64,000 nucleotides of DNA from Prunus persica (lineage: Eukaryota > Streptophyta > Magnoliopsida > Rosales > Rosaceae), in the NCBI RefSeq assembly GCF_000346465.2, contig NC_034016.1, positions 14,648,969-14,712,968 of the forward strand. Reading direction: 5' to 3'. Below are positions 17,208 through 60,216 of the stretch, piece by piece; position 1 is the first letter of the stretch, and each line of letters opens with the position of its first letter. Under the pieces are notes generated by a model. The model saw only the letters and a program-made list of their open reading frames with translations, was not told the origin of the DNA and searched no databases. Made by a program: the position numbers and the translations under genes.

Positions 17208-20200
17208 TCATGCATTTTGTTCATCAGTCTTGTCCGTTTGAATACAACTCAATCTTGAAGCACCCAAACATATAAGGAATATGGCAGGCAAAAGGGAGGC
17301 TTTGAGAGGATTTTGATGATGCCGAATGAAGTAAACGTACTGAACTGTCGAGCAAATACACTGAGAGATGGCACCAAGTAATCCAAAAATGTCAAGAACA
17401 TCACCAAATAGCCTTCGCTGGGGTCTTGGATAATAAAACCACCACAACGTCCTCCACCTCCTCAATTCAACTCTTTCCTTTTTACCCTTGTAAATGAGCT
17501 CCCAGATGCAAGTCAGTACAGCAGAAATAGCCAACATTACACCAAATACTGCATACTGGGGATTCCTTGGGGAGGAAACCTGATCAAAAGCAAGTGACAA
17601 AATCTCTAGGCACAGGGCAATGAGTAAAAAGATCCACTTTGCTGAAGTAGCCTACAAATAAATCAGTAATACAATGAACTAAAACTTAACAAGCAAGAAC
17701 AATGCAAAAGAAAATGTAGGTTAACTATGATTATGAGTTATGACTATTCGACAACCATTAGGCTTGAAAAATGATGTAGAACAGATGGGGAAAGCAATTG
17801 AAGAGGAGTTGCAAAGACGCATGCGCAAGGGTAAATCAGGCAAAACACATCACTTTGCTATGATGTATCGGCTTTTTCGGGCATCTGAGATTGTTTAGCA
17901 GCTTGAAACCTGGCGTTAAACTTTTTACACTTTTTGGAAATTTTGTTATTTTTCTATTTTAATTCATTGTTTATTCCTAGAATTTCTAGGAATATTTAAG
18001 TAGATTTTACCTGTGACTAGGGTCTTTTTTTTAAAATTCCAATTTGTCAAATAAACCTTAAGGTTTCCTCATATCTTCTTGGTGGATTTCAGAGTTACAT
18101 GTTCTAGGCTAAAGTTTTAGCCAATCTATTGTCCTCGTCATGCTATGTCAAAAAACTTAAACTGTCACGAAATAAGTCAACAATATATATCAAACTGACA
18201 CCTCCCTCACGTGCAGCCCCAATCCTACACAATTAGACCCTTCGAACTAGAGCTTTAATGTTAATACCATGTTAGAAAACGTATAGGCTCCAAAAGCTAA
18301 GGAAGGACCAAATGATAAGATTTTAAAAAAAATTTACAACATAATTCCAAAATATAAACACTTGAAAATAACCACGAGTGAATGTACTTTCAAAAACTTG
18401 GAAACTCGATGACAAAGATTGCGGCTAATATAGGGAGGCGGTTTCAAAAATAAAATAAAAGAAAAAAAATGTGTCGTATAGTAAGTGGAAGACATTTTAC
18501 CTTAGCGCTCAATGTCTTATCCGGTACACGCAAAGTTACCATAATGTCCTCAGTTCTATTTATTCCCTAGTATGAAAAAAAAAATTGCATTAATAGAGCA
18601 AGTTATTTGTCAAATAATAGTGAAAGTATTTCAAATTATTCTAGAACTATTTTCCTTTAAAATTTCAATAAGAAAATTATATTCTACATATGGCATACAT
18701 ATATTTACTTACCGTATTTTCCGATAGAACATGGTTAACATTCTTGTAAAACCACGACCTGCTATGTCGCCGACTTCTGAGCCTAGTTAAAGAATCTTGG
18801 CAGGAAAATATTTCTCTACCCATTTTTTGTATCAAGTCATTCATCCAAATATGGTCTTCTTTAATAATTACCAAGGCCTTTTCTATGAGTACTTGAATAC
18901 CGTACTCAGGGTTCTGGTGACAACTTTCTAGCATTTTTATCACATAGTTCTTATTTTTACCTTTTAAGAAACATGCAATGTCAAGGAAAACTTCTTTAAC
19001 CAGATCTTCTAGTGCATCGTAACTTATTTGGACAATGTCTTGAATCTCTAAGTCAACAACTCTTTTGTAATCATCCAATGCAGCTTTCCATTGATCTATG
19101 CTTCTACCACATAGGAGTGAACCTATAATTGTGAGAGCTAATGGAAGCCCCTTAGCATAGTGCACTATTGCAGTAGCGACTTTCGCATAATCATCAGGAA
19201 GTTTATTTCTTCGGAAGGCATTCCAACTGAAGAGCTCAAAAGCTTCATCAAAATATAATTCCTTCACCTTGTATATTAGGTTAACTTGATGAGCGGTTAA
19301 CAAATGTTTGTCTCTTGTTGTTATGATGATTCTACTGCCCAAACCAAACCAATCAGACCCTCCAACCAATTTGTTTAATTGGTCCAATTGATTCACGTTA
19401 TCAAGAATTAAGAGGACTTTCTTGTGGCTCAATATTTTCTTTATCACATTGATTCCTTTATCAACATGGGTCCAGTCCAATTGTTTCTCTCCTAGGATCT
19501 CAGAAAGAACAATCTTTTGTAGTTTGACTAGGCCTCCAGGTGCCACTGAATTTTCTCCTACACTTGCCAAAAAACAGCTACATTCGAACTCATGGGCAAT
19601 CGAATTATAAACAGCTTTAGCAATTGTTGTCTTACCTATTCCATTCGGCCCCCATATTCCTAACATGCGAACATCATTTACCCCAATTCCTAAAAGCTCA
19701 CTTATATCTTGTACGCGAGACTCTATTCCAACTGGATACTTTGCCACATTGAAATAAGTTCGGTTTAATACTTGTGCTGAAATTTCTTCAACAATGTTAT
19801 GAACAAATTTAGAATTGTGCCTGCCAGTTAAAAGCATATGAAACATTTAATGAAATGGAATTTTGCTAGCTAGCTATATATTTCGATCTTATAATTCTGT
19901 CTAAAAAGGAAAAGGGAATATAAACTCTCTCAATAATTTCTCAAGAGGAAGATGCTATATATGTTTAACCAAACAAGCGACTTTAGTTTTATTTTATTCA
20001 TATTACTTTCCTTAAGAAAAGTAATAATCCTAGCACACTAAGTTCACAAATTTGAGATCAATGTGGCAGTATTTCGTTTATTTATATATGAACTTATTAC
20101 AATTTCCATTTGTTTATTATAAGTATGATATTCTCATATCAAATGTTCTATTATTTGGCGACCAAATTTAATATAATTTTTTTTCTTGTGATGCTAGTAC

Positions 20201-21199
20201 GTGTGTTGGTGCCCAGGTATGACATGTAGGATAGATTAGGAGAAAAACTTAGTTGTTGCAAGGATAATATTGTTTTCCTATTTTCGACTAATAATGCTAT
20301 GCCAAGTGGAAGTGTTGTCACGCATGTCATAACGTTATTGACCAGAAATAACAAAATACTATCCTCGTTTCATGGAAGTATTTCTCCTTAGACTAGATGA
20401 TTGTCAACCTATGCTAGGGTACAACAACACCGAAGAAATCTTGTTTAACTGCCGAAGAAATCTTGTTTAACTGCTGAAATTCCAATTTTATAATCTCATA
20501 TATATTCTCGTTCCCATTTCGATTCTTTTTACTTATGATTCATTTTTATCTTGATTTCTTGTTATGTAATAATGTGTGAGCAAATTTGTTAAGTACTAAA
20601 ATGGATGAATTTTTTTAACAAAATAAAGAAATTAGAAACAAATAAATAAATCGAAACGCTAGTAAGTGGTTCTTAGAAATATACCCGTCCAAGAAATACC
20701 ACCCCGGCAAATTTGTTGCTTCTCTAAGAGCTGCCCTCCATCTCAGCACCTTCTCCATGTTATCTCTGAATTTGTTTTCATGGTTAGCAAATGCCTCACC
20801 AAAACTGCCTTGTTGGTTGCGCACATCTATGAGATCCACCTTGTAATAAACTGGCCAAACAATTTTCTGCTTTGCTGCTCTACATTGAAGGATCTCAACC
20901 AGTTCATCCAAGCACCAGACTGAAGATGCAAAATTCTCGGAGAATACGATGATAGAAATCCTTGACTCTCCAATCGCTTTAAAAAGCGTTGGCATTAATA
21001 GTAGTTCTTCTTCTCTTCTGATAAGCTCATCGGCAAGGAAGGTTTTAATTCCCCTTTGAAGCAAATTTCTGTACAAATTGTCTGTGAAATTGTTGTGGGT
21101 ATCCGCGTCTCTATAACAGAGAAAGACATCATATGCCCATGAATGGTTGAAAGAAGAAACGGAAGAGGCTCCTAATAATTGAGTGGTCACTGAATCCAT
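17208..21199 (-). CDS. Gene D: TIR-NBS-4TM immune receptor-like protein, complete
   Basis: Four exons on the minus strand: 21199-20685, 19820-18713, 18566-18501 and 17651-17208. GT-AG borders and phases (2,0,0) agree; 710 aa. TIR at about 20-170 (YDVFLCYRDADT; VWCLDEL with Glu99 at the position of the NADase glutamate). NB-ARC at about 173-541: P-loop GPNGIGKTT, kinase-2 VLLILDNV (second Asp replaced by Asn), GSRIIITTR, GLPLAL, RNBS-D FLDIACFLKG, and MND in place of MHD. A 22-residue linker precedes four hydrophobic segments (about 564-690). No LRR is present. It is the only member here with the full ARC2. The Asn in kinase-2 and the variant MHD may change nucleotide cycling. A pathogen target cannot be inferred. 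Confidence 0.85.
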
Positions 21200-21235
21200 T
21201 TTGTTTGAGAATGATATGTCAAAGACTTGAAATAA

Positions 21236-22255: not shown

Positions 22256-24107
22256 TCTGACCATGAAACTTAAAGCAGTCTTATCATGATACTTAAAGCA
22301 GTCTGACCATAAAACATTGTTTTGAATGCAAGTGATAGTTTAAATCACAAATGGAGGGAGTTTCTCACACACAATACTACAGTGTTGTGGGAATTTGAAC
22401 CTGATATACCACTAGTTTGAGAGAAATTCAATTGCTTTTTCACCTCAGCCACACTTCCATAAACACAAATATGCCCCCAGCACAAGCTCCTAGGAACGTT
22501 CACCACCTTTCCTGTAATCGAATGTATATTAAAGATCAATACACAACAAAGACTCAGTCATTCCTCCAAGACCTCCTATGTTTTAATTCCTCTTCACGCC
22601 TATTTTCCTATACAAGTTACGCAGCACAAATGTTGTGACGCGTTGGTTGGTGGTGTGCCCTATTTTTCTTTTTGTTGCAGACTTTTATGAATAGAATATG
22701 TTGGGCCGTCAAATTTAGAAAGAAGAACTTGGACCACGTCAGGAGTCTTTCGGTAAAAGAGGCCTTTCTTCGTATGGAGGCCCAAATCAGGATCCTTTTT
22801 TGGCTTTTGCTTCGTCTGGAGTCGTTCCGTTATTGGGGACTTCAACTATGGAGGTCATCTCAATCCTGTTTTCTGTCTTGCACTTTTTATTATTGGCAAT
22901 TAGTTTGCGCGCACCCAAACACCCAAGATAGATGACGGGCAGAATGTTTACTTTGAAAGGATTCTCCATGCCCTTAAGCATGCACACAAACCGAGCTATG
23001 GTGGATAGCCACTGAGAGATTACACAAATTATTAATCCAAAAATGTCAGGAAACATTTCTAAACGCGCGCTTGAGCTTTCTCCATTTTTACACTTGAGAA
23101 TGAGTTCGCAGATGTTAAAGAATAGAGCCACAGAAGCCAACCACATACCAGTGAGTGCAAACTGTGGATTTCCTGGGGAGAAAAACTGATCACAAATAGC
23201 TGCAAGGATCTCCAGGAAGAAGCTAATGATTAAAAATATCCACTCTACTGTGTCGGCCTGCAAAAAAGATAATTAGCCACACAATCAACAAAATCTTCTC
23301 TGCTAAAGGAAAAATAAGACAGTTGAAGATTTTTTACCTCTAATAAGAAGCTTTTAATAGTAGTACTCCAACTTGTATTTTCTACCACGCCTGCTTTCGG
23401 TTTGGGTTGCTAGTATGAAAAGGCAAGTGCATTAACAAATTATATATATAAAAAGGTTTTGTTTGTAAATTTGAATACATATGTGTATTAAAAGATTATA
23501 TATAATACTTACTGTAACATCGTCAATTTGGTTACGTAGCTTTTCCAATATTTTAGTATCGGAGCTCGTTTCATCTCGTCCAGGAAACCCTTCAGTGCCT
23601 TCAGTTGCATTTACTCCCTAGAGTAACCGAAATAAAAGCAATTGCATGCATAAATAAATAAATAAATAAAAGGAATTTTCTTGACAAATTGAATAAGATA
23701 ATACATATGTGTACATATATTATACTCACTGTGACAGCCTCAGTGTTAGGAATTCTTCCTTGAAGTGTTTGTAATGCTAGAGTACTGGAGAATGTCTGAT
23801 CTCCTTCAACCAACTTTTCAGTGTTTTCAACTTTGTTTAGTGCCTATTTTTTCAAAAAAATAATTATATCAACAAAGTAATATATAAAAAAAGTAAAATG
23901 GTTTCCCTACTTCCTTCAAGGACAAACTAACAAACAAAAAATAAAAAGGTTTAGGGTTTAGGGTAAAACAATACATATGTGCATATAAATATTTATATAC
24001 ATGTATTCTACTTACATCGTCAGTTCCCGGAGCTTTTCCTAGCAAGTCTTCTTCTTGAATACTGGAGAATGTCTTATCTCCTTCAACCAAGTTTACATTG
24101 TTTTCAT

Positions 24108-24695
24108 TAGGGGTGGGCACTCAAACCGGCGAACCGGAAATCCAAGCCGAACCGCACCGAACCAAATCGGAAAAAAACCGAGTTGACTAAAAAGTCAAAA
24201 ACCGGTCAAAAACCGAACCGAACCGGTTTGGACCGGTTCCAGATCCGGTTCCATGTCTTCAAAACCGAACCGGGCCGAACCGAACCGGTGAAACTAAAAA
24301 TATATATAATTTCAATATATATTTATATTTAATGCTATATTTTAATTTCACTAAAAAAACCTAATATTTATCCAAGTTCATCTCAAAATATCTCTCTTTT
24401 CTCACTTTAGATGTATTTTTATACGAGATTGAATATTTTGTTAATTTTCAAGTAGAAAGTAATATTTCAGTTGAGAATTGTATTAAAAATATTTGAAGAA
24501 TAATTGTTTATAATCCGGTTCAAGCCGAACGGAACCGGAACCGGACGAAACCGGAGCGAAACCGGTTCAAACCGAACCGGACAGTTTTTGAAATTTTTTT
24601 AATTAAAACCGAACCGAACCAAACCGGATGAATAGTACCGGATCGGTTCTAATTTGAGGCAAAAACCGGTCCAAACCGAACCGTGCCCACCCCTA
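24108..24695. mobile_element. Non-autonomous hAT element inside a coding exon of F
   Basis: The terminal repeats TAGGGGTGGGCAC and its exact complement are flanked by an 8-bp duplication GTTTTCAT (24100-24107 and 24696-24703), the hAT signature. Both subterminal parts are packed with ACCGAACCGG-type repeats. It carries no transposase. Removing the element and one duplication restores a 105-base exon, 35 codons in phase 0. Confidence 0.88.
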
Positions 24696-24765
24696 GTTTT
24701 CATCTTCATTTTGTTCCTATTCATGAAAAAACCATTGATTTAACAAATTATTATATATAGAGCTT

Positions 24766-25250
24766 CAATTTAGGGATTCTTCAAATAAGCATATTTGAGG
24801 GACACCCTTATAGGTCTCACAACACATTGTTTTTCAATAATTAAGCCGTCTAATTTTTAGATATTCCCCCAAAGATCATCTCTGCAAAGAATCACTTGAA
24901 TCCGAAACCATTTGACTCCTCAAATAACCTTTTAGGGTCCCTTACGAATTTTTTTTCAACGATCCAAACTATCTATTTTTTTAAGTCTATATTCATAGAT
25001 CATTCTTGCAAAAAATTAGACAAATCGAAAATCGTTTCGACATCCAATTGTATCCTACAAAATCAATGAACACAGTGCTTCAAGAAAGTACTAAAATTTC
25101 AGTAACTCAATTGAGTGGTCAAATGATATTGGATTCAAATGATTTTTTGTAGAGATGATCTTTGAATGATTATCTAAAAAATAGACGGTTTGGATTAGTG
25201 AAATATAATGCGGAGTGAGATCGCTCAATAGAAGCTCACTATAATTCCAG
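24766..25250. repeat. Intronic MITE family M1, copy a
   Basis: Shares with the copies at 25647, 35165 and 39358 the block CATAGATCATYCTTGCAAAAAA, an inner ATTGAGTGGTCAAATGATAT-like stretch, and GAGATGATCTTTGAATGA. It lies in an intron of gene F. Its ends are diverged. Confidence 0.6.
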
Positions 25251-25646
25251 TATGTATTTGACTTACTGTAACATCGTCAGTTCTATTAATATGTCCTTGA
25301 ATCCTTTCTTCTTCTTGAGTATTGGAGAATGTCTCAACTCCAAGCAACTTTGCAGTATTTTCAACTTCATTTAGTCCCTATTGTATGAAAAAACAATTGC
25401 ATTAACAAACTAATACTTGAAAAGGAAAAAGCTTTTGCCAGTCAAATTGAATAAGACTATATGTGTGTGTGTGTGTTGTGTGTTCCACTCACTGTAACTT
25501 CGTTATAAGTTTCAGAAATTTTTCCTTGAAGTCTTTCTATTTCTGGAGTACCGGAGATTGTGTCATTTTGTTCAAGCATCAGTTCATTTCTTTGAGCTTC
25601 ATTTAGTCCCTATAGTATGATAAACAATTGCATTAATAAGTTTATA

Positions 25647-26049
25647 CAGTCCCCTTCTATTGAGGGATCCCTCAAATAATTTTATTTGAGGGACGCCCTT
25701 TAGGGTACCCTACAATTCTTTTCCCAATAATCCAAACCATCTATTTTTTAGGTATTCATTCATAGATCATCCTTACAAAAAATTAGACAAATCGAAAACC
25801 GTTTCGACATCCAATTGTGTCTTACAAAATCAATGAACACGGTGCTTTAAGAAAAGTACTAAAATTTTAATAACTCAATTGAGTGGTCACATGATATCGG
25901 ATTCAAGTGATTTTTTTGTAGAGATGATCTTTGAATGAGTATCTACAAAATAGACGGTTTGGATTAGTGAAATACAATCCGGAGTGGGGCCTACAAGGGG
26001 TGTCCCTCAAATAAGCTTATTTGAGGGATCCCTCAATGGAAACTCTCTG
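25647..26049. repeat. Intronic MITE family M1, copy b (best preserved)
   Basis: The inverted ends share ATTGAGGGATCCCTCAAATA. Flanks TAAGTTTATA (left) and TAAGTTTTTA (right) look like a diverged 9-10 base duplication, suggesting a Mutator-type MITE (inference). It lies in the intron of F after the NB exon. Confidence 0.68.
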
Positions 26050-26548
26050 TAAGTTTTTATATATATATATGAATGTACGTTTATATAAATTTGAATAGAT
26101 ATATATATATATATATATATAGTGCGTACCGTGCTTGCAAGTCATGCACCCCATGTTCTTCTTCAACATTGGTGAGGACATCTTCTTCGGGTCTTTTCAC
26201 TTGATGTTCTAGTTCCTTTTTTGTAATTTTGAGGATTTCATGAATATTTGAGGCAGGAACTCTTTTGTAACTTTCTAATATGGATTGCCATTCATCTATA
26301 TTTTTCCCATACAAAAGTGAACCCATAGCTGTGAGGGCTAATGGATTCCCTTGAGCATAGCCTACGAAACTATTTGCGAGTTCTTGATAATCATCCGGAA
26401 GTCCACTTGTTGGGAAGGCATTAGAACTGAAGAGCTCCAAAGCTTCATCAGATTCTAACTCCTTCACTTGGTAGCGCAAATGCTCAACCCTTGCTGATAT
26501 TCCTGGACGTACCGACTGCCGCGAACAAGAGGATCTTCTGCTTGACAT

Positions 26549-32746: not shown

Positions 32747-34451
32747 CTAAGGAGATGAGCTGCTGAATGCTGGTTTTGTTGGTGCAGTTAGTTTGACAGC
32801 ACCCCAACACCCAAGAAAGAGGACCGGCAAAATGTTTACTTTGAAAGGATTCTGCTTATTCATAACTATGCACACAAAGCGAGCTATGGAGGACAGCCAC
32901 TGAGAGAATGCACAAATTAATCCAAAAACGTGAGGGAAAATATCGCCTGAACTTTCTCCGGGACTCTCAGATTCGACGATTTTTTCTATTTTAAACTTGA
33001 GAATGAGTTCGCAGACGCAAGTGACTAGAGCCACAGAAGCCAACGACATACCAATTAGTGCATACTGGGGCTTTCTTCGGGAGGACAACTGATCACAAAT
33101 AGCTGAAGATATCTCCAGGACGAAGCTAATGATTAAAAATATCCACTGTACTGAAACGGCCTACAAAAATGATATATAATTAGCAACACGATCAACAACA
33201 TCTACTGTGCTGAAAAAAAAAATAAAAAATCTCCAAGGCATATGCAAAGAAGGACGAAATGAGAAAGCTTTACATTCTATAAAAGAAAGTAGAAGATTTA
33301 CCAAAAGAAGGCAAATATGTTGAATATATATCTTCTTACCTTTGATAAGAAGTTTTTAGCAGTTTTGACAAACAAAAATAAGCTTTTAGTAGTAGTACCC
33401 CACCATGTCTCCGCTGATAATAAGGGCACCATGCCCTAGTATGAAGAAACAATTGCATTAACATATAGTAACATAACATAATTAAGATTTTTCTTGTCAA
33501 TTCAATAAGATAATACATATGTGCATATAATTTCATCCTTGCAAACCATCTATCTTTTAAGTGTTCATTCAAAGATCATTTCTACAAAAATTTAGACAAG
33601 TTGAAAATCATAAGACATCTAAGTGTGATTAACAAAATCACCAACACCGTATTTAAAGAAAACACTAAAATGACAACTATTTAATTGAATGGTTAAATAA
33701 TTTCATATATGAGTGCTTGTTTGAACTGATGATCTTTGAGCGAATACCTAACACAAATGGGTGAGATCATTAAAATACAATGCGAAGTGTGCCCTACAAA
33801 AATGTTTCTTATTTGAGAGATCCATCAACTGAAACTCTCTGCATATATATATATATTATACTCACATCGTTGACATCCCCAATTTGTAGAGCGATCCTTT
33901 CTTTCTTAATGTCGGAGTCATAATTTAGTCCCTATAATATGAAGAAAAAAAAATTGCATTAACAAATTACTATAAGAAATAGAAAAGTTATTCTTACCCA
34001 ATTGAATAAAATAATACCTTGAGTGTCTATATATATATATACTAACCGTAGCATCTTCCATTATGGGATTTGTTCTTTGACCACTTGATAGAGAATCGAA
34101 TAATGTATCATGTTGTGCAAAAGAGTTTTCTGAGCTTCTACTTTCATCCAATCCCTATATAGCACGAAAAAAAATTGCATTAACAAATTAATATAGAAAA
34201 AAAAGGAATTATTCTAGTCAAAATGAACAAGACAATGTATATTACTCACTATATCATTCTCACTGTTTGAAATTATCCTCTGAGGACTCCTTTCTACTTC
34301 TTGAACACTCGATAATGTTTCATGTCGTCCAAACGAGCTTTCCGTGCTTCCACCTCCATTCAATACCTATTGATGAAAGTAAATTGCATTAACAAATTAA
34401 TATAAAATATGAGAAAGTTTTGCTTCTCAAATTGACAAAGACAATACCTAT

Positions 34452-34496
<45 letters not shown>

Positions 34497-36299
34497 TCGT
34501 TCACCTAAGAACTTAAAAATAAAGTCTAGTGAGCACCTATTTAATAAATGCTCTTGGATTAATCCAATGACACATATAATTAGTAGTAAACCCTCATTCA
34601 TTCTCCATATTTTACCCAAATAAACCCTAATCATTCTAATATTAAAAAAACAAAAGGAGAAAAAGAAAATTAGGGAATGTGTTGGGGAAGAGAAAGGGGA
34701 GAGAGAAAAAATGTTTTGGTGATAGAAATTTACCTTTTCTAGAAAATAGAGAGAAGAGAGAGTAAAGCATTTTTAATTTAATTTTCATGTAAGATTTAAT
34801 CTCATTCATTAAAAGTAGAGCAATCTAATGACTTAAAAATTGTGTCAAAATTTGCGTATAAAAATATGATGTCACGGATCTGCCCATATATATAGTGCTG
34901 CTATTTTTCCACTCACCTGTTCTATTTTCCCATTCACAATTATTCCTAAAACACCCTTAAATTATTAAAATAAACTAATAATAAAATAACATTTAAAAAA
35001 ATAAAAACCCTCTCTCCTCCCTTCCTAACGCACCCCCTCAGCAACACTAGCTGTGCCACACCCACCCCCCTCCCAAACCTCTTCACCCTCGTCCACCATA
35101 TAAGATGAGTGGGGAAATAAGATACGTGTGTGGAAATAGCAGCACTATATATATATATATTATAGTATGCTTTTATTGAGACATTCTTAAATTTTTTTTG
35201 AGGGACACCATTAGGGTCTTCTACAATTTTTTTTTTTTCAACGATCCAAATCTTCTATTTTCCAAGTCTTCATTCATAGATCATCCTTGCAAAAAATCAA
35301 GAAAATAATTTTTATTTTTATTTTAGGGACACCCTTTAGGGTCTCTTAAGATTTTTTTTAACGATCCAAACTGTTTATTTTTCAAGTCTTCATTCATAGA
35401 TCATCCTTGTAAAAAATTAAGAAAATTAAAAATCATTAAGGCATCTAATTGAAACCAACAAAATAGAACATGATGCTTTAAGAAAAGAAGTATAATAATA
35501 ACCATCTAATTGAGTGGTCAAATGATTTCGGATTCAAGTGATTTTTTTGTAGAGATGATCTTTGAGGGCATATCTAAAAACTAGACGGTTCAGATCATTG
35601 AAATACAATTTGTGGTGAGCCATACAAGGGATCAAATAAACTTATTTGAGGAATCCCTCAACTGAATATAGAACATTGTACTTACTGTATCATCCTCTGT
35701 TTTTGAAATTATCCTTTGATCCTTTTCTTCTTCTTGAGTAGTGGATACTGCTTCATGTTGTCCGGTTGCGTTTTCATTGCTTCCCGCTTCATTCAATACC
35801 TATAGAGGAGAAAAATAACTGCATTGGCTATGAAAAAGTTTTGCTTGTCAAATTGAACAAGACAATACATATTCTACAGTCTACTCACTGTGTCATAAGT
35901 TTTCGAAATTATCCTTGGATCCCTTTCCACTTCTTGAGTACTGGATAATGTCTCATTTCTTCTGGTCGAGTTTTCTGTGCGTTCAGCTTCATTCAATACC
36001 TATAGATGAAAAAATAAATTGCATTAACAAATTAACATAAAAAACGAAAGTAATTTCCTTGTAAAATTGAACAGATAGTACATATGTGCATATATATTAT
36101 ATACATATTCTACCCACTGTATCATATGTTTTTGAAATTATTCTTCGATCACTTTCTATTTCTTGAGTACTGGATGATGTCTCATGTCGTCCAATCGAGT
36201 TTTCCATGCTTTCAAGTTCATTCAATATCTGTTGATGAAAAAGAAATTGCATTAATTACAAAATAAAAAAGAAGTTTTCTTGTCTAATTGAGAAATACA

Positions 36300-36333
<34 letters not shown>

Positions 36334-39300
36334 GCATATTGTACTCACTGCAACATTGTCAGTTTCTAGAATTTTTCTTTGATGCCTTCCTACTTCCGGA
36401 GTAGCAAGCAAACTTTCAGTGCTTTCCGTTTCATTGTGTCCCTGTAGTATGGAAAACACTAATTGATGAATAAATAAGAATAAGAAATTAAAAAGATTTC
36501 CCTGTAAATGTGTGCGTGTGTATATATATATATATGTATGTATGTGTCATTGCTTACTGTGGTTTCTGTGAGAAAATAGTTAATATTGTCGTGAAAATCA
36601 TTTCCAAGTATATCTTTATCCATTTCGTTCAGAAAGGAATACACCCAAGCATCTTTGTCTTCTTCAATATCCTCGAGGCCATTTTCTTGTTTTAGTGCAT
36701 TTTTGGTTATTTCCAGGACTTCATGAATAGTTGAGGCAGAAGCTGTTCTGTAACTGTTTAATACAGATTGCCATTGAGCTATACTTTTCCCACATACGAG
36801 TAAACCCATAGCTGTAAGAGCTAATGGATTCCCTCGAGCATAGTCTAAGAAACTAGTTGCGAGTTTCCGGTAATCAGGATCATCCGGCAGCCTACTTCTT
36901 GGGAAGGCATTAGAACTGAAGACCTCCAAAGCTTCACCAAACTCTAATTTCTTGACCTTGTATGCTAGGTCTACTCGATAATTAACGAGTACATGCTCAA
37001 ACCTTGTTGTTATGATAATTCTACTGCCAGAAGCAAACCAATTAAATTCTCCGACTAATTTTTCTAATTGGTTATTTTGACTCACATCATCAAGCACTAC
37101 GAGAACCCTCTTTCGGCGCATCATGTTCTTCATCACTCGGATTCTTCCAACAATACTGTTCACCCCCAATCTTACGTCTCCTAGAATGCTTCTAAGAAGA
37201 TTATGTTGTAGTTGGAGCAGGCCTTCCGATGTCTTTGAATTCTCTCTAACATTTTCCAAAAAGCAGCAAGCTTCAAACTTATGGGCCACTGAATTATATA
37301 CAGCTTTAGCAATTGTTGTCTTACCCATTCCACCATCACCCGATATACCTACCATGCGAACATCAGGGTCTCCAATGCCTAAAAGATCGTGCATATCTTG
37401 TACGCGAGACTCTATTTCAATTGGATAGTTGGCCTCATATTTCAAATAAGTACGGTTTAATAATTGTGAAATATGTTCATAGACGCGATGAATCAATTGG
37501 GATACATGCCTGCCAAACATATTCATAACACGTTAGTCAAATCAAAGTTTGCCGCATATGTTTAAATAAGGCAAAGAACATATAAACCGGCAAAAAAGAG
37601 AGTAGAGGATTTGCTAGATTAACAAGCCACTTTTACTTTGAGTAATTATTGTGTGGTACTGTGAAAACAGTAGCTTGATATAACTTTCACGTTATAACGT
37701 CAGTTGAGATTAAACAGAAAAAGAAGATAACCCTTGCTCCCAAAAAAAAAAAGCAAGATAACCCTCAAATGACTAAATGTGGTTAGAAAAATACCCGAAG
37801 AGATGGAACCCAGGCAAAACAACTGCTTCCCTAAGAGCTGCCCTCCATCTCAATACCTTCTCTGTATCATCATTGAACTTGCGTTCATGGTTAAATAATG
37901 CATCACCAAAATTGTCAGTTTGCTTTCTGACATCTGAGGGGTCCACTTTGTAAAAAATTGGCAAAACAATTTGTTGCTGTGTTTTTTTACATTCAAGGAT
38001 CTTAACGAGTTCATCCAAGCACCACGGTGAAGATGCATAGTTCTCAGAGAATATAATGATAGAAATCTTTGACTTTTCAATTTCCTTGAGAAACGTTGGT
38101 GATGTTCCATCCCCTGTTCTAAGGTCATCATCCATCAAGGTTTTAATTCCCATCTGTTGCAAATTGCTGCACAAGCGGTTTGTAAAACTGTAGTATGTAT
38201 CCGCAGGTCTAGAACTGAGAAAGACATCATACTTCCAAGTATTAGTGGTAGCCTACAGAAGAAATTGGTGAAATATTCAATTAAAATTTGAAGATATCCA
38301 GCAAGAAATGTGCAAAAGAATTCAATCAATCTAAATGAAACTTGTACTATAGCGTAGATTCAAGTCCTGTAAGTCATGTTTCCAAATAAAACCCCAAAAA
38401 ACTCTTACCGCACTCTCTCCTAGCTTCAAAGAAAAAACTCAATAGGAGGCATGAAGAAGAAGCATCACTTTCCATTTAGGCCAAATGCGGTGATGGTTTT
38501 GACAGTAACGCTTCTTCAATTTGTAGCAGTAGTGTTCATTTAGGCTCATGAAATTTGAGCTATTTTGAGTTTTGTGGGCCTTATTTGAGATTATGCTTAA
38601 ACTCAACTATGCTGACTACTAGTAGTTGGTAAGTCTTGTAAGTCATGTTTCCAATCTATAGATTTCAGATTTTGTAAACTTTACGAGGCAAAAATTGGGA
38701 AAAGAAAAGAAAGGAACAAATGACATACAAACTTGAAAGAAATTTATAATAGAATCCCACAAACAAAAGCTTTTCAAATAACAATGTACGAAAGTAATAT
38801 AAAAAACTATGACATGTCAAAGTTATGTCAATGTGGGACTCTTCGTCAGTTTGATTCTAATCAGATATTAATGTGTATAATGAGGGCCCTCTTTTGTTTG
38901 GCTCAAATTGGTTTAAAGTATCTGCCCTGCATAGTGAGTTCATGTGTTTGAATTCCCGGCTTTCAATATTTTTTGTATAAAAATAAATAAATAAATAAAC
39001 ATGCCATTCTGTGGAAAATACAAGATAGCAAACTAAAATTAATCCTATGTTGTCAACTAAAATCGATGAAAAATATTGTCATATACATATTCAAGCCAAT
39101 CTATCTACCAATCTCAACTCGTTAGGAAGATAATATCCCCAAAATGATTTGCAATAAATTTATAAAAAGTTGAAGACTTTTCACCTTTGAGAAACTTGTA
39201 GCATCTGGTTGACGTATGATGTCTTCAATTTCCTCCGTCTCCTAGAATGAAAAGTTGATTACTCAACTAAGCAAGGTCTTTATCAAATAAAAATAAAGGT

Positions 39301-40924
39301 ATTCCAGATAAATCTATTTTAATGCTGGAATTAATATATACATATATATATATATATATATTCGTCCCATTTTATGGAGGAATTCTTCAAATTATTTTAT
39401 TTGAAAGGTACCTTACTAATTTTTTATAAACGATCCAAACCGTCTATTTTTTTTGAGTTTTCATTCATAAATCATCCTTGCAACCCAAAAAAAAAAAAAA
39501 AGAAAAAAAAAAAAAAAGACAAATAGAAAATCATGGCATCTAATTGAGACTAACAAAATCAATGAACACGGTGCTTCAAGAAAGTACTTAAATTTTAATA
39601 ATTTAATTGAATGGTCAAATGATATTAGATTGAAGTGATTTTTTTTTGTAGAGATGATCTTTGAATGAGTATTTACAATAGACGGTTTGAAATTTTAGTA
39701 CTTTCTTGAAGCACAATGTTCATTGATTTTGTAGGACACAATTCGATGTCGAAACGGTTTTCGATTTGTCTAATTTGTTGTAAGGATGATCTATGAATGA
39801 AGACCTAAAAAATAGATGGTTTGGATCATTGGAAAGAAATTGTAGAGTACCCTAAAGGGTGTCCCTCAATAGAATATATATATATATATAACTTACTCTG
39901 TTTTCTCTCAAATAGGTACGGCTTAGTTGTACTGAAACCTCTTCAGCCATCTTGTGCACAAATTTAGGTTCATCCCTGCCAGTTTAAAAGCAAATGATGA
40001 AACATTTCATAAAATGGAATTGAGTTGATCTAAGAAACCTATTTTGTATAAATTGTACTTGATTGCCCGTTAAGACAGCATAGTATCATGTATGGGAGAT
40101 GAACTTATGGTATGAAAAATATACACGTAATATTTGTTATGTAAAGCTTTTCTTTTCCTAAATAAGTGACGATTGTGGAAAAATCTCTGAACCTTCAATG
40201 GGCGTTATGGAAGGCATTGACCAATGGCCACACCGCTTAAGAGGGCAATATTCTTTATTTTTTATTAGTTAAGTTAACTTCCGTTAGATTTAGGGGTTGT
40301 TACTGAAATAAATCAAATCTTTGTTACCTCATTAGATTTGCTAGAAAATAATGTGGAAACATCACAAATGGGCTAGAAAATATACCCGCGCAAGAAAGAC
40401 CACCAACACAAATTTGCTGCTTTCACAAGAGCTCTCCTCCATCTCAACACCTTCTCCATATCATCCTTGAATTTGGTTTCATGGCTAGCAAATGCCTCAC
40501 CAAAACTACCCTCTTGGTTTCTCACATGGGAGGGCATCACCTTGTAGAAAATTGGTACAACAATTTGTTGCTTTGATTCTTTACATTCAAGGATCTTAAC
40601 GAGTCCCTCCAAGCACCATACGGAAGATGCATAGTTTTCGGAGAAAACAATGATAGAAATCCTTGATCGTTCAATTGCTTGGAGAAAGTCTTGTGATATT
40701 TCTTCATCTCCACTTCTAACCTCATCATCTATGTAAGTTATAATTTCCTTCTGAAGCAACTCGCTGTACAAATGCTCAGTAAAACCGTTGCGTGTATCTT
40801 CAGCTCTAAAATTGAGAAAGACTTCATATGTAAGTGGATGGGTGAAATAAGAAGAGGAAGAAGAGGCTCCTGAATTTTTTCTGGTCAAAGAAGAGGCTCC
40901 TGAATGAGAGGTGATTGACTGCAT
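32747..40924 (-). CDS. Gene BC: TIR-TIR-NBS-repeat linker-4TM receptor-like protein
   Basis: Fourteen minus-strand exons: 40924-40386, 39975-39897, 39241-39185, 38252-37795, 37509-36558, 36441-36349, 36228-36118, 35999-35889, 35799-35686, 34366-34250, 34154-34047, 33931-33866, 33435-33340, 33160-32747. Phases agree throughout; 1104 aa. TIR1 at about 31-180 has CLEGL instead of CLDEL (Gly107 at the catalytic Glu position). Exon 2 is a stub of an NB exon. TIR2 at about 226-378 keeps CLDEL (Glu306). NB-ARC at about 379-695: GDGGMGKTT, VLVVLDDV, GSRIIITTR, GNPLAL; RNBS-D and MHD are missing. Six similar 31-39 residue linker modules span 696-913, and four hydrophobic segments start near 968. The codon before TIR2 in genomic frame is TAG, part of the acceptor, so TIR2 must be spliced onto upstream exons. 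Two separate genes remain possible without transcript data. Confidence 0.75.
33520..33845. repeat. Intronic MITE family M1, copy c (degenerate)
   Basis: Weakly conserved copy: TTCATTCAAAGATCATTTCTAC, ATTGAATGGTTAAATAATTT, and an end resembling GATCCATCAACTGAAACTCTC. It sits in the intron between BC exons 12 and 13. Confidence 0.5.
34894..35146. repeat. MITE family M2, short copy in a BC intron
   Basis: Inverted ends AGTGCTGCTATTT and GGAAATAGCAGCACT match those of the longer copy at 60217-60958. It lies in the intron between BC exons 9 and 10, next to AT dinucleotide runs that hide its target duplication. Confidence 0.65.
35165..35668. repeat. Intronic MITE family M1, copy d with internal duplication
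   Basis: Carries the block GTCTTCATTCATAGATCATC twice (about 35261 and 35388), so the left part is duplicated. The right end matches TTATTTGAGG.ATCCCTCAA. It lies in the same BC intron as the short M2 copy. Confidence 0.6.
39358..39890. repeat. Intronic MITE family M1, copy e, in inverted arrangement
   Basis: The left half reads like the other copies (GATCATCCTTGCAA, then GAGATGATCTTTGAATGAG). The right half from about 39700 repeats the first half in reverse complement (ATTCGATGTCGAAACGG, AAGGATGATCTATGAATGAA). It is therefore a head-to-head palindrome of two partial copies, in the BC intron between exons 2 and 3. Confidence 0.62.
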
Positions 40925-55723: not shown

Positions 55724-58700
55724 TCAAGAGCCAACAGCAATGGATTCCAATTCCTTCTCACTGGTCTCCTCTCTTGTTCTGCCCCTTGCATTCCGAATTA
55801 ATTTTGAAACAACCAAACACAGAAGAAAAAGGACAGGCAAAATGTTTACTTTGAAAGGATTGTCCTTATGCCGAAGCACGCACACAAACTGAACCATGGA
55901 GTACGCCCACTGAGTGATTGCATAAATTAATCCACAAATCTCAGGGAAAGTACCAAAAAGGGTGCCTGAACATGGACAATAAAACCACCACAGCAATATT
56001 CCGCACTTGCCAAATTGAACATTTCCTCTTCTGCCTTTGTGAATGAATTCCCAAATGCAAGTGGCTAGAGCCATAATAGCCAGCCCCATACCAAAGAGTG
56101 CATAGAGGGGCTTTCTTGGGGAGGAAAGTTGATCACATATAGCTGAAAAGATCTCTAGCATCAGGCTAACGATTAAAAACATCCACTCCGCTGAAAATAC
56201 CTACAAAAGAAATTAGTAGTTCAATTAAAGTTTAAGAGATATATCTTGCAAGAAAAAATTTTAAGCAACTGATCGAGAGGTGCTTAGAAAGTTGTAGAGT
56301 TTGCACCTTACTTAAGAAGCTTTTAGCACTAGACCATATCCCATCTGGTTGCTCAGGCAAACTTTCTTGGTGTTGAATTCCAATTGTTCCCTGGTATGAA
56401 AAAGCTAGCAACTAAGCTATTAACAAATTCAAGTTCCTTATCAAATAAAATGATAGTGCTTTCAGGTAACTGCAAGGCAAACTCATTTGTTTCTTGGCAA
56501 CATATATGCATTTGTATATATATTCTACTTACAATGTAAACATCCTCACGAACATCCTGTCGAGCAGTTTCTATATGCATTTCTTCTTGCAAGTCATGCA
56601 TTTGAACATGTTCTTCTTCATTCGGATCAATCCTCACGAGGGCAGTTTCCATGGATATTTCCGGATGTTCTAGAGCATTTTTGGTTATTTTGAGGATTTC
56701 ATCAGTATCCAGGGAAGGAGCTCTTCTGTAACAATCCAATGCAGCTCGCCACTCATCTACACTTCTACCACATAGAAGCGAACCAGTAACCGTGAGAGCT
56801 AATGGGATCCCCTTAGCATAATCTACTAGACTTACTGCAAGGTTCTTATAATCATCTGGAAGTCCTTTTTCCGGGAAGGCGTTATAGCTGAAGAGTTCAG
56901 AAGCTTCATAAGTATCTAGTTCCTTGACCTCATACACTAAGTCAACTTGATGAGACGTTAGCAAATGCTTATGTCTTGTTGTTATGATAATTCTACTACC
57001 CAAACCAAGCCAATCAGACCTTCCAGCTAATTTGTTTAATTGGTCCAATTGATCCACATCATCAAGCATCAAGAGAACCCTTTTATGACTCAACCTTTGC
57101 TTTATTACATTGATACCTTTATCAACGCTTGTCAACTCCAATTCTTTTCCCCCTAGAATCTCATAAAGAAGAGTCTTCTGTAGTTGGAGCAGGCCTCTAG
57201 GTGCCGCTGAGTTTTCTCTAACATTTTCCAGAAAACAACTACCTTCAAACTGATGGACAATTGAGTTATAAACTGCTTTGGCAATTGTTGTCTTACCTAT
57301 TCCCCTAATCCCCCATATACCTACCATGCGAACATCATTTACCCCAGCACCTAAAAGCTCACCCATATCTTGCAAACGAGACTCTATACCAACTGGGTAC
57401 TTTGCCACATGCAAATATGTACGATTTAATACTTGCAATGAAATCTCTTCAACGATGTCATTGATAAATTTGGACTCGCTCCTGTCAGAATAAAATATTT
57501 TAAAAAACATGAAAAGAAATGGAATTTAATTGATATGTATATTTAAAAGAGCCGAACAACATGCAATATATCTATTAATGTAGTAGTTTGAAGTAAGTGC
57601 TCCTCCATGCAAGGTCCTGGTTTCGAGTTCTAGCGTCTATATAGTGTGTGTGAGTTTAGAATATTATCCAAGGGTGGAATCAGGAATTTTTCAATAGGTA
57701 AGCTAGCTAAAGTTATTAGCTTAAAATCTAATGACAATTTTTTTTTTTTGGCACTAACAATTTCTATAGTTTTTATATAAATAAAAGTATACATTAAATC
57801 ATATAAATCACGCTAGTTATAAACACAAGAAAAAAAAAAGGAATTAGAGCCATATTATTCACGAAATGGTGAATTTTATTTAGAAAAATCCTTCTCTTTT
57901 GGAGATACATTAATGGAAAAGGATTAAAATTGATGTTTGGGACAAACTTTGAGACCAAATACAAATGTAGATCTTTGACTAGCCCTATTGGTGTGGTAGG
58001 ATATGCAATTATATATGTATTTTATTTATTTATAGTTCAAAATATTAGGCTATATATGTTTAATTTTTTTTTCCCCCAAAACCTTCCCCAGGCTACAGCC
58101 CCTAAGCTAGTTCTGCCCCTTATATTATCACCTCTCTCAACAGAAAATGTCCTAAAAAAAAGTCAAACAACACATAAACACACACAAAAAAGGCAAACAA
58201 TACAATACGCATTAATTTTGAAGTTTGCTTTTTCTTACGGAAGTATAGGTTAACCATATTATTTTCTTTTTATCAAAGAGAAACTTTATTAGATAAATAC
58301 AATCAAAGACATCAACATGATATAAAATTAAGGCTTAATAGGGTTCATATAAGTTTGGTATCCTAAATTTGTACCCTTAATGCATGTCTATCCCGCATTC
58401 TCAATTTTAACACTCACGTACGTACCTTTAGTTTGTAAAATTTTTACAATGTACCTCTGAAATTAGCATTAATTGCTGTCAAAATTGCCATTAAATGATG
58501 ATGTGGCATATTTGGGACTCACTTTTTTTTTTTATAAAATGATGTGGCATTTAATATTAATAATAAATATTAATATCAAGTATTTAAAAAGTTAAAAATT
58601 AAAAAAAAAAAGATAACCGGCCTCAAATATAGCTATAGTAATTAGGTGGTTAGAAATATACCCATCCTTCAAAGTCCACCCGTGCAAATTTGCTGCTTCC

Positions 58701-59164
58701 GTAAGAACTGCCCTCCATCTCATCACCTTCTCCATGTCATTAATGAATATGCGTTCATGGTCGACAAATGCTTCACCAAAAGTGCCCAATTGCTTTCTCA
58801 CATGCGAGGGTTTCACTTTGTAAAAAATTGGCATAACCATCTGTTGTTTTGAACTTTTACAATCAAGGATCTTGACGAGTTCATCCAAGCACCAGGACGA
58901 GGATCCAAAGTTTTCGGAGAATACGATGATAGAAATCTTCGACCCTTCAATTTCGTTCCAAAGTGCTGGTGACATTTCTTCCCCTCTCTTATAGTCAGTA
59001 TCCATGAAGGTTTTAATTCCCTTCTGTTGCAAATTGCTGTACAAGTGGTCTGTAAAATTGTAGCGTGTATCTGCAGCTCTATAACTGATAAAGACATCAT
59101 TTCTCCAAGAATTGGTGGAAGAGGAAGAGGAAGAGGATACTGATTCACTGGTGATTAAAGCCAT
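55724..59164 (-). CDS. Gene A: TIR-NBS-4TM immune receptor-like protein, complete
   Basis: Four minus-strand exons: 59164-58662, 57481-56533, 56390-56307 and 56200-55724; phases 2, 0, 0; 670 aa. TIR at about 20-167: NDVFISYRAADT and WCLDEL with the catalytic-type Glu95. NB-ARC at about 168-484: GIRGIGKTT (about 225-233), VLLMLDDV, GSRIIITTR, GIPLAL, then a shortened ARC2 that loses the RNBS-D block but keeps VQMHDLQEEM, an MHD-like motif. The linker is only 28 residues (GTIGIQHQESL...SFLSK). Four hydrophobic segments follow (AEWMFLIVSLMLEIF; MGLAIMALATCIWEF; EICGLIYAITQWAYSMVQF; VNILPVLFLLCLVV), then a charged tail. No LRR and no look-alike linker exons. No lesion is seen. Confidence 0.87.
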
Positions 59165-59252: not shown

Positions 59253-60216
59253 TAGGCGGCCTCTTGCTGGGCACCATAGATACTTGAGTTGAGAAGCAGT
59301 TTCCTGCTACCTTCAACGTGCCTGAATTTCAACCCAAGTAATACGACAAAGTTTCCTACCTACTACCTTCTCGGTGAAAGTTTCCTACTACCTTCGGTCT
59401 ACCTTTTAGCTGGACCGAAGCGTAAGAGTATTTTATCAATTAAGTTTAGAAAATAAATTATGGTATCCACTATAAATTTTATTTTAACAATTTTGAGTTA
59501 TTTATTTTTGAAGTTTTCATTCACAGATAATTTTTGTAAAAAATTAGACAAATTGAAAAGTATCATGACATCTAATTATAACTAAAATAAATGAATATGG
59601 TGATCCAAAATAACACTAAAATGAAAACATTTCATTGAGAGGTCAAAAGTTCGAAGAAACACAATACAAAGTGTATCACAAAGGTATCCTCAAACAAGCA
59701 TGTATATATATAGGTTTGAAAGCACAAAAAAATGCATACTAAGACAAAGCCTAGGTTTAAATATGTATATGATATACATATAGATTGTTACGAATCATAT
59801 TTGCAATGAAGGTTCCTGCTGCATTCAACGCACAAGTCGCATGAATCTGAAATCGACCTAAATGAGAAATAGTTTTCGTTTACTTTCGGTGTGAAAGGTT
59901 ATTGAAGGCTTTTTATCGCAAAATGTGAAGCTTCGAAACTATCAAGTTATGTTCTTTATAATTTTTTTTTTCTTCATTCGTGGTCCTTCAAATTAAAATG
60001 GATGCTCACAACTAGTTCACATGCCATCAACTTCCATTAAAAATTTTGTTAACTTGATGACTGGGCCCAAATGTGTGACTCACGAGTTTAGATCTTATGT
60101 CCCCATTTTGTCTTTCCCTTCTTCGTTCCTTATCTAATTTTTTGACACATGTCCTTTCACTTAACTCTAACATAACAGTGTTAAATTTTAATAAAATTAA
60201 AAATAATAAAAATTAA
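59253..60216. other. Upstream region of gene A with an M1 MITE remnant
   Basis: No gene is seen. From about 59490 to 59700 a degraded M1 MITE is recognisable (TTTTTGTAAAAAATTAGACAAATTGAAAA-like stretch, then CATCTAATTATAACTAA). The rest is AT-rich. Confidence 0.45.

Follow-up and report, generated by a model that had tools for sequence, protein, structure and literature searches.

Two TIR exons lie ahead of a single NB-ARC exon on the minus strand of peach (Prunus persica) chromosome 8, and the locus raises the question of whether they are read together as one dual-TIR receptor or belong to two neighbouring genes. We addressed this question in a window of 64,000 nucleotides (NC_034016.1, 14,648,969 to 14,712,968), the whole stretch of DNA that was analysed and to which the positions below refer. 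An earlier note on this DNA had proposed that two neighbouring units were assembled into a TIR-TIR-NBS-linker-4TM fusion receptor, in which 4TM stands for four transmembrane helices.

Fourteen exons in phase and a second TIR without a start

The fourteen exons do join in phase as claimed: every internal boundary of the exon model has an AG acceptor and a GT donor, the phases agree, and the conceptual translation of the joined exons runs to 1104 residues and has a single stop, at its end. All lie on the minus strand. Exon 1 (40924-40386) encodes the first TIR (TIR1, matched by Pfam) with its ATG and a Ser-rich leader; exon 2 (39975-39897) is a remnant NB exon, recognised by DNA alignments to NB exons; exon 3 (39241-39185) is the first 57 nt of a decayed LRR1 exon, recognised by DNA and protein matches; and exon 4 (38252-37795) encodes the second TIR (TIR2), which is 5'-truncated and has neither ATG nor leader. 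They are followed by the NB-ARC exon 5 (37509-36558, Pfam), by seven linker exons of phase 0 that span 36441-33866 (exons 6-8, 36441-36349, 36228-36118 and 35999-35889; exons 9-10, 35799-35686 and 34366-34250; exons 11-12, 34154-34047 and 33931-33866), by a pre-membrane exon 13 (33435-33340), and by exon 14 (33160-32747), which carries the stop codon and, from hydrophobicity and AlphaFold2, the four transmembrane helices. The Pfam matches above cut-off in the 1104 residues comprise two TIR stretches and one NB-ARC, and neither half matches an LRR family. It is possible that all fourteen exons belong to one mRNA, which sequence alone does not establish.

The absence of a start for TIR2 was likewise confirmed, with an in-frame TAG before exon 4 and the first in-frame ATGs (codons 34 and 40) falling beyond the first TIR motif. 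TIR2 might instead start in an unrecognised upstream exon, which would make TIR1 a bystander and the downstream part an ordinary TIR-NBS-linker-4TM gene with a single TIR. Its reading frames are intact, and a permissive scan of 39400-38253 returned seven candidate ATG..GT phase-0 start exons (e.g., 38549-38469, 27 codons, ending in AAA before the donor GTGATG). However, the scan that yields these putative exons is a permissive one, and the neighbouring units B, D and E hold the ATG and leader inside the TIR exon itself; we consider a separate start improbable.

TNL ancestry of the upstream half

Judged from its sequence, the upstream half is the descendant of an ordinary TIR-NBS-LRR (TNL) gene and is a TNL no longer. 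It aligns block by block with L062, a TNL on the same chromosome (C8:14.04 Mb), through colinear DNA matches in 40871-38700 that cover the TIR exon, the NB/LRR1 intron, the LRR1 exon and the LRR1/LRR2 intron, and the TIR1 exon is 77% identical in DNA to the TIR exon of L062. The order of TIR exon, NB exon, introns and LRR1 exon is shared, whereas the NB and LRR1 exons that are open in L062 are here internally deleted and broken, respectively. In the former NB exon (39897..39975, minus strand), a large internal deletion has joined the 5' end (..LSRTYL) to the 3' end (RENR, before the donor GTAAGT). The 5' side matches the NB-exon start of unit B at 76.5%, and the 3' side aligns with the NB-exon end and donor of L060 and L062 in alignments that are short and AT-rich (scores 42 and 38). 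The earlier note placed the end of exon 2 right after LSRTYL; it actually lies four residues later, at RENR. By DNA alignment, the NB-ARC domain of the upstream unit is gone and only the two ends of its NB exon are left. A foldback (MITE-like) repeat occupies 39364..39869 in the former NB/LRR1 intron and has at least 137 genome-wide matches including itself, a figure that counts matches and not copies.

The decayed LRR1 exon (38808..39241, minus strand), traced by DNA and protein matches, carries indels and a TGA at 39124-39122 in the natural read-on of the frame. An LRR protein match, SFSKVKSLQLFIN..YLPNELRLVD (best E 2e-4), runs across exon 3 and intron 3, and four places at C8:13.89-13.94 Mb match 39204-39158 with 87% identity, two of which were checked (L060 and L061) and are TNL genes. 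DNA alignment to L062 also identifies a remnant of the TNL LRR1/LRR2 intron (38700..38807, minus strand), beyond which the LRR2 acceptor, CAG in L062, is aligned as CAA. With LRR1 broken by indels and the TGA, and with CAA at the LRR2 acceptor, no open LRR exon is left in the upstream unit. The proposal that the ancestral upstream gene had lost its NB-ARC and membrane exon was therefore right about the NB-ARC and wrong about the membrane exon, since the ancestor was a TNL with LRR exons. A former TIR-NBS-4TM gene was considered as the ancestor and set aside, because an LRR-bearing TNL fits the colinear blocks in 40871-38700.

The GT donor of exon 3 sits within this old coding exon, reading GTG where L062 reads ATG. 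The stretch from exon 2 to exon 4 could accommodate 26 exons of 30-400 nt that are open, in phase and bounded by AG and GT, of which exon 3 alone survives a stricter splice filter; 35.5% of 200 mononucleotide shuffles also yield one or more exons that survive it, so the presence of exon 3 by itself is weak evidence. A direct splice between exons 2 and 4 would likewise keep the phase, and exon 2 probably retains its ancestral acceptor and donor; therefore, a fusion would require no new donor.

In intron 3, a 126-bp block (38768-38643) shows an unexplained 73% likeness to sequence beside a 4TM-like exon, L063 (C8:16.36 Mb), and shares part of its length with the LRR1/LRR2 intron match.

The downstream unit as a member of a TIR-NBS-linker-4TM family

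On comparison of exons and domains, the downstream unit is a start-less member of a tandem family that combines a TIR, a shortened NBS, an exon-repeat linker and four transmembrane helices, so that the locus does hold two neighbouring units of different origin, as had been claimed. Its members were detected in Prunus and Rubus, and a TIR-4TM relative in Salix; a chance origin of the downstream unit was rejected because the architecture recurs. The unit has the NB-ARC and C-terminal 4TM module of the family and, like it, no LRR; its TIR exon, however, lacks the ATG and leader. P0003, P0005, P0009, P0012 and P0019 (Prunus and Rubus) and the peach units B and D share the TIR, shortened NB-ARC, linker and four-helix end, and P0003 and P0015 also have the repeated linker. 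In the Prunus and Rubus relatives a single TIR carries both the ATG and the Ser-rich leader, whereas here TIR2 is start-less and a foreign TIR exon stands before it. Their database names are 'TMV resistance protein N-like', hypothetical or unnamed protein. Within the window, exon comparison identified unit B (17244..21217; TIR with ATG leader, NBS and 4TM exons), unit C (22790..26500; NBS fragment, linker exons and 4TM, with no TIR match), which is a truncated relative of P0003/P0015, and unit D (55733..59164), a single-TIR TIR-NBS-4TM orthologue of P0005/P0009 (NBS 94.0%/92.1% and TIR 80.6%/83.5% identical), all on the minus strand. P0055 from Salix viminalis (uniref, 1511 aa) has a TIR and then the same 4TM module; it differs in having no NB-ARC between its last TIR and the 4TM, and is possibly a gene model joining neighbouring genes. 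Among the open-licence papers listed in our searches, none describes a TIR-NBS protein that ends in a four-helix membrane module, and the available text of peach, Rosaceae and integrated-domain NLR surveys mentions no such protein (PMC4851768, PMC10598982, PMC4336698, PMC12787737).

The NB-ARC exon retains the P-loop, kinase-2, RNBS-B and GNPLAL motifs, and its Pfam match stops at profile position 227 of 248. Linker exons 7-10 are duplicates of a unit of ~37 residues (20-26 of 37-38 positions identical). Hydrophobic stretches in the last exons cover residues 963-993, 998-1026, 1045-1063 and 1073-1091, and the AlphaFold2 model of the 4TM end, built on 8 sequences, has four helices (mean pLDDT 72, pTM 0.59). 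A fold search with this model returned no significant match, the pentameric channel subunits and sensor domains in its non-significant lists being taken as probable instances of common four-helix arrangements, and no Pfam model matched the four-helix module above cut-off. The layout had been described as non-standard for a plant receptor; this holds for the missing LRR domain and the well-predicted 4TM end, but not for the rest, as TIR-NBS-linker-4TM is a tandem family and the order TIR-TIR-NBS is known.

The downstream frames stay open throughout their 2637 nt, and their splice sites are canonical. Had the unit been dead through even 2% neutral divergence, the probability of no stop would be ~0.15, counting stops only, and that of whole frames ~0.002 under an assumed rate of one indel per eight substitutions; therefore, the unit was either recently silenced or is still used. 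The focal NBS is identical to P. brigantina P0243 at 202 of 212 positions (95.3%), no less conserved than the NBS of unit D (94.0%), and the P. brigantina gene model reaches it from a neighbour's membrane exon, skipping TIR2. Branch dN/dS of the focal NBS is 0.65-1.12 versus 0.28-0.46 in the sisters B and D, with several overlapping bootstrap ranges; the NBS branch of unit F is also fast (0.89 with either outgroup and 0.69 against D), so a fast focal NBS is by itself no proof of decay. Small branch dS makes the values for TIR2 (3.20 with one outgroup, 0.63 with another) and 4TM (0.97 to 2.00, undefined in one of six) unstable, and TIR1 spans 0.57 to 6.59; the selection tests are only partly useful, the NBS values being the steadier ones.

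One receptor or two units

In the TIR tree, TIR1 groups with P0121 (100/100) on the side that holds 8 TNL rows, a weak split (47/85) with three 4TM-family rows (B, E and P0019) on the same side, and TIR2 groups with unit D and P0005/P0009/P0160 (87/72). TIR1 is 95% identical to P0121, where it is also open. At the position of the catalytic Glu, TIR1 has Gly107 (WCLEGL), aligned with the Glu of WCLDEL/WCLEEL in RUN1 (6o0w) and ROQ1, and it is also without the Gly of NLSGW. TIR2 keeps the catalytic Glu (WCLDEL, Glu306); its AA loop is altered (SRPADTY versus the consensus FRG.DTR), with the AA-loop Gly lost. The count of broken conserved columns, out of 36, fails to separate the focal TIRs (TIR1, 4; TIR2, 3) from those of the single-TIR units (B, 8; D, 6; E, 6; F, 2).

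A fused dual-TIR receptor, the capture proposed in the earlier note, would arise if exons 1-2, with or without exon 3, were spliced to TIR2, giving a membrane-anchored protein of 1104 or 1085 residues in which the Glu-less TIR1 might act as a scaffold in cis for the Glu-keeping TIR2. Consistent phases and canonical splice sites, the missing start of TIR2, and frames that are intact and conserved in P. brigantina all agree with such a product, and TIR1 and TIR2 are the closest same-strand TIR pair among the 150 scored matches listed (2597 bp start to start; the next, 4008 bp). Dual-TIR receptors are also already known. According to the available text of the reports, cotton GhRVD1 is a dual-TIR TNL with a demonstrated product, has two adjacent TIRs ahead of its NB-ARC as in the conceptual 14-exon product, and requires both TIRs for cell death (PMC10170703, PMC12856790). 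In the same text, GhRVD1 has LRRs and no 4TM end is described, whereas the peach locus is known as sequence, and Pfam finds no GhRVD1-type LRR domain in its 14-exon product. TTNL genes of Fragaria and Arabidopsis, as far as the available text describes them, share the TIR-TIR-NBS order and, unlike the peach product, are classed with LRRs (PMC5806312, PMC2175511). However, the exon 3 donor lies within an old coding exon, both TIRs have lost motif residues, and among 5.8 billion proteins, other peach proteins included, none, annotated or assembled, crosses the upstream/downstream junction in the searched length ranges. We therefore regard the fused receptor as rather unlikely.

The most likely explanation is two separate damaged units, and we hold with modest confidence that a TNL relic abuts a start-less TIR-NBS-linker-4TM unit, with two products or pseudogenes as the presumed default. 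We count in its favour the TNL colinearity, LRR match, exon 3 donor, TIR tree, damaged TIR motifs, lack of a junction-crossing protein, the P. brigantina model that skips TIR2, and the focal NBS dN/dS; against it stand the open 2637 nt, NBS conservation, the open TIR1 of P0121, the exon 2-exon 4 phase, the few broken TIR columns, the fast unit F, the overlapping bootstrap ranges and the weak tree split. The upstream unit keeps an open TIR exon, with its NB exon cut to its ends, a foldback in the next intron, and LRR1 interrupted by indels and a stop. By default its transcript would end in the old LRR exon and encode a 245-residue TIR-X-like protein that lacks the catalytic glutamate. The downstream unit has whole frames and has lost its 5' end, the ATG and Ser-rich leader. 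Its four helices may anchor in the membrane a TIR-NBS module without LRRs or a complete winged-helix part, and the exon-repeat linker may be a spacer of variable length. With two damaged units, the fused 1104-residue receptor would be at most an accidental or occasional splice product.

It is a speculative and unlikely prospect that a splice across the TNL wreck rescued the start-less TIR-NBS-4TM gene, creating an LRR-less, membrane-anchored dual-TIR receptor in which a catalytically dead TIR stays permanently tied to a live one as a natural half-active pair. Such a fusion may be common to other Prunus, because TIR1 (P0121) and the NBS (P0243) are each ~95% conserved elsewhere. If it is true, resistance-gene clusters make new receptors out of wreckage, with a dead NLR giving its promoter, start codon and TIR to a neighbour lacking its own. 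If it is false, the locus still highlights a little-described TIR-NBS-4TM class filed as 'TMV resistance protein N-like', and an LRR-less, membrane-anchored TIR-NBS would be a natural test of whether TIRs can signal from the membrane without the usual sensor part.

Gene model and the start of TIR2

The 14-exon gene model (40924-32747, minus strand) lies on peach chromosome 8, in a window at C8:14648969-14712968 of a 227.5 Mb assembly. It was rebuilt from the sequence, and the model of the earlier note held: all introns are GT/AG, the phases are consistent, and 1104 residues are encoded with a single terminal stop. Pfam recognizes two TIR domains and a single NB-ARC in this product above its cut-offs. 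The second TIR (TIR2, exon 4, 38252-37795) was also correctly described as start-less, as its exon opens right behind the in-frame acceptor TAG and its first ATG comes no earlier than the 34th codon. Of the neighboring cluster units, B, D, and E carry ATG, leader, and TIR in one exon, and F has a broken leader. At the DNA level, the TIR2 exon resembles unit D as far upstream as 38251, and not beyond. Since there is no early ATG, the leader of the relatives lies in the TIR exon, and the similarity ends at 38251, TIR2 has lost its start. It may instead have its own start exon upstream, for which there are seven candidates, a point against a fusion with the first TIR (TIR1). In the unit F leader (locus L018, ~5399-5441, C8:14720.3 kb), the ATG frame, which does not match the TIR frame of that unit, ends at a TAG behind MKYNLTTE; the leader of the almond relative of unit F, P0012, reads through (MKYNLTTELAASS).

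The upstream half as a TNL relic

The earlier note had traced the upstream exons to a unit like the downstream one. Instead, ordered blocks between 40871 and 38700, including LRR1, align colinearly with a TIR-NBS-LRR (TNL) locus at C8:14.04 Mb (L062), indicating a TNL relic beside a TIR-NBS-4TM unit. These blocks comprise the TIR exon (40871-40378, 77%), the intron between the NB and LRR1 exons (39363-39242, 70.5% with the next base included), the ancestral LRR1 acceptor (39241, by alignment), a block inside the LRR1 exon (39203-39159, 87%), and the LRR1/LRR2 intron (38807-38700, 72%), the acceptor of which aligns as CAA in the relic vs. CAG in L062. Further, TNL protein searches (best E 2e-4) identified an LRR-exon start, SFSKVKSLQLFIN..YLPNELRLVD, that spans exon 3 (39241-39185) into intron 3; its DNA recurs at four places in C8:13.89-13.94 Mb, and the two inspected, L060 and L061, are TNL genes.

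Exon 2 (39975-39897) does not end at the LSRTYL motif as previously thought. Its 5' part is the beginning of an NB exon (DEPKFVHKMAEEVSVQLSRTYL), with 76.5% DNA identity to the start of the unit B NB exon, and its RENR/GTAAGT aligns to the NB exon end and donor in L060 and L062 (scores 42 and 38; short and partly AT-rich). Because exon 2 joins an NB-exon beginning to an NB-exon end with its donor, the NB exon seems to have suffered a frame-keeping internal deletion. The intron after this remnant holds a foldback repeat (39869-39364) with at least 137 matches genome-wide, itself counted. Pieces of one foldback family (39364-39869, 35146-35590, 33539-33739, 24795-25961, and 59500-59622) occupy several introns or flanks of this cluster, and another piece lies in intron 1 of the L060 TNL (4506-4887).

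Exon 3 is the first part of LRR1, in frame, and its assigned donor GTGAAA sits within the old coding exon, where L062 has ATGAAA. Natural read-on past exon 3 ends at a TGA (39124-39122), giving a 245-residue TIR-X-like protein; splicing exon 2 to exon 4, with exon 3 skipped, is likewise in phase. Within intron 3, 126 bp (38768-38643) are 73% like a stretch of L063 (4792-4917, around C8:16358.8 kb). In L063, a 4TM-like exon follows this stretch after 30 bp, so the block may possibly be a trace of a membrane exon that was lost.

The downstream half and its four-helix module

The downstream half begins with a TIR and an NB-ARC that stops shortly past the GLPLA-type motif; these are followed by seven small linker exons and one four-helix (4TM) exon. 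Linker exons 7-10 are repeats of a ~37-residue unit, with 20-26 of 37-38 positions identical. The 4TM module was modeled as four helices (AlphaFold2, mean pLDDT 72, pTM 0.59); a fold search with this model gave no significant match, and no Pfam model scored above cut-off. The module also occurs in units A-D within the window, in units E and F outside, and elsewhere on C1, C4, C5, C6, and C8, with 25 matches scored in the genome, some being fragments of a single copy. It is present in 7 of 335 proteins gathered by three protein searches (P0003, P0005, P0009, P0012, P0019, P0243, and Salix P0055), a set picked by similarity to the focal gene and thus no census. Unit D is orthologous to P0005 and P0009 (NBS 94.0% and 92.1%), unit F is related to P0012, and unit C is a truncated relative of P0003/P0015.

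The tandem TIR-NBS-4TM array, all on the minus strand, runs from 8032 to 59164 and on to C8:14713403-14720280 (units E and F). Several units look damaged, with no TIR match in unit C and only 4TM matches in unit A. Off-cluster, 4TM open reading frames were found on C5 (L024, L026, and L028, 1.22-1.37 Mb), C4 (L025), C1 (L029), and C6 (L035), with no NB-ARC among the matches listed for C5:1.2-1.4 Mb. The module may have been acquired from a distinct family of 4TM genes. The long P0055 model from Salix viminalis contains two TIRs plus three 4TM stretches and ends in a TIR, a linker, and a 4TM, with no NB-ARC in this C-terminal part.

A possible fused receptor and its two TIRs

That the upstream exons are spliced to TIR2, yielding a single fused dual-TIR receptor, is a minority hypothesis. 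In its favor, the 2637 nt of intact frames would be improbable following long neutral decay, and the focal NBS is identical to P. brigantina P0243 at 202 of 212 positions, a conservation no lower than that of the unit D NBS. Against it, the P. brigantina model carrying this NBS enters it from the membrane exon of the neighbor, without TIR2, and dN/dS on the focal NBS branch is 0.65-1.12, compared with 0.28-0.46 for its sisters B and D; F reaches 0.89, and the bootstrap ranges overlap in several cases. P0243 is a chimeric model (tail of the unit D orthologue, focal NBS, then a 4TM exon like that of unit B), and therefore the order of units appears conserved in P. brigantina while the gene model itself is wrong. 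Also in favor of a fusion, TIR1 and TIR2 form the closest same-strand TIR exon pair among the 150 matches scored, and TIR1 is 95% identical to P0121. The P0121 reading frame continues into intron 1, so this protein looks genomic; its source code 'lgn' presumably denotes sequence-archive contigs. Against a fusion, no junction-crossing protein was among the best 120 matches in the three protein searches, at lengths of 607-1932, 180-572, or 337-1073 residues, where other peach proteins were present. The first and last of these searches scored only candidates sharing most words, and a near-identical junction-crossing protein would rank first even within the best 120.

Of the layout called non-standard earlier, tandem TIRs have precedents, whereas no description of the TIR-NBS-4TM class was found in the searchable literature. 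Cotton GhRVD1 is a dual-TIR receptor in which, as reported, neither TIR triggers cell death alone (PMC10170703; PMC12856790), and dual-TIR TTNLs are listed as 24 of 1134 NBS-LRR genes across six Fragaria species (PMC5806312) and as two genes in Arabidopsis (PMC2175511), all sharing dual TIRs with the 1104-residue model. At least two TIRs occur in 94 of 334 TIR proteins gathered here, and at least 10 proteins have, by eye, two consecutive TIRs ahead of the P-loop motif (P0002, P0025, P0031, P0033, P0035, P0038, P0128, P0129, P0252, and P0291).

TIR1 has Gly107 at the position of the WCLxEL glutamate of RUN1 (6o0w) and ROQ1, which we take to be their catalytic glutamate; the RUN1 chain of PDB 7s2z has Ala there. 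TIR1 further carries Trp instead of the conserved NLSGW Gly. TIR2 keeps WCLDEL, but SRPADTY stands at the site of the consensus FRG.DTR. Among 36 columns conserved in ≥90% of 308 reference TIRs, 4 are broken in TIR1, 3 in TIR2, 5 in P0121, 8 in B, 6 each in D and E, 2 in F, and none in L062. TIR catalysis is described as requiring at least two TIRs in proximity (PMC9153377), and a TNL without the catalytic Glu is reported still to confer resistance (PMC12856790); it is therefore thinkable that a dead TIR is tethered to a live one.
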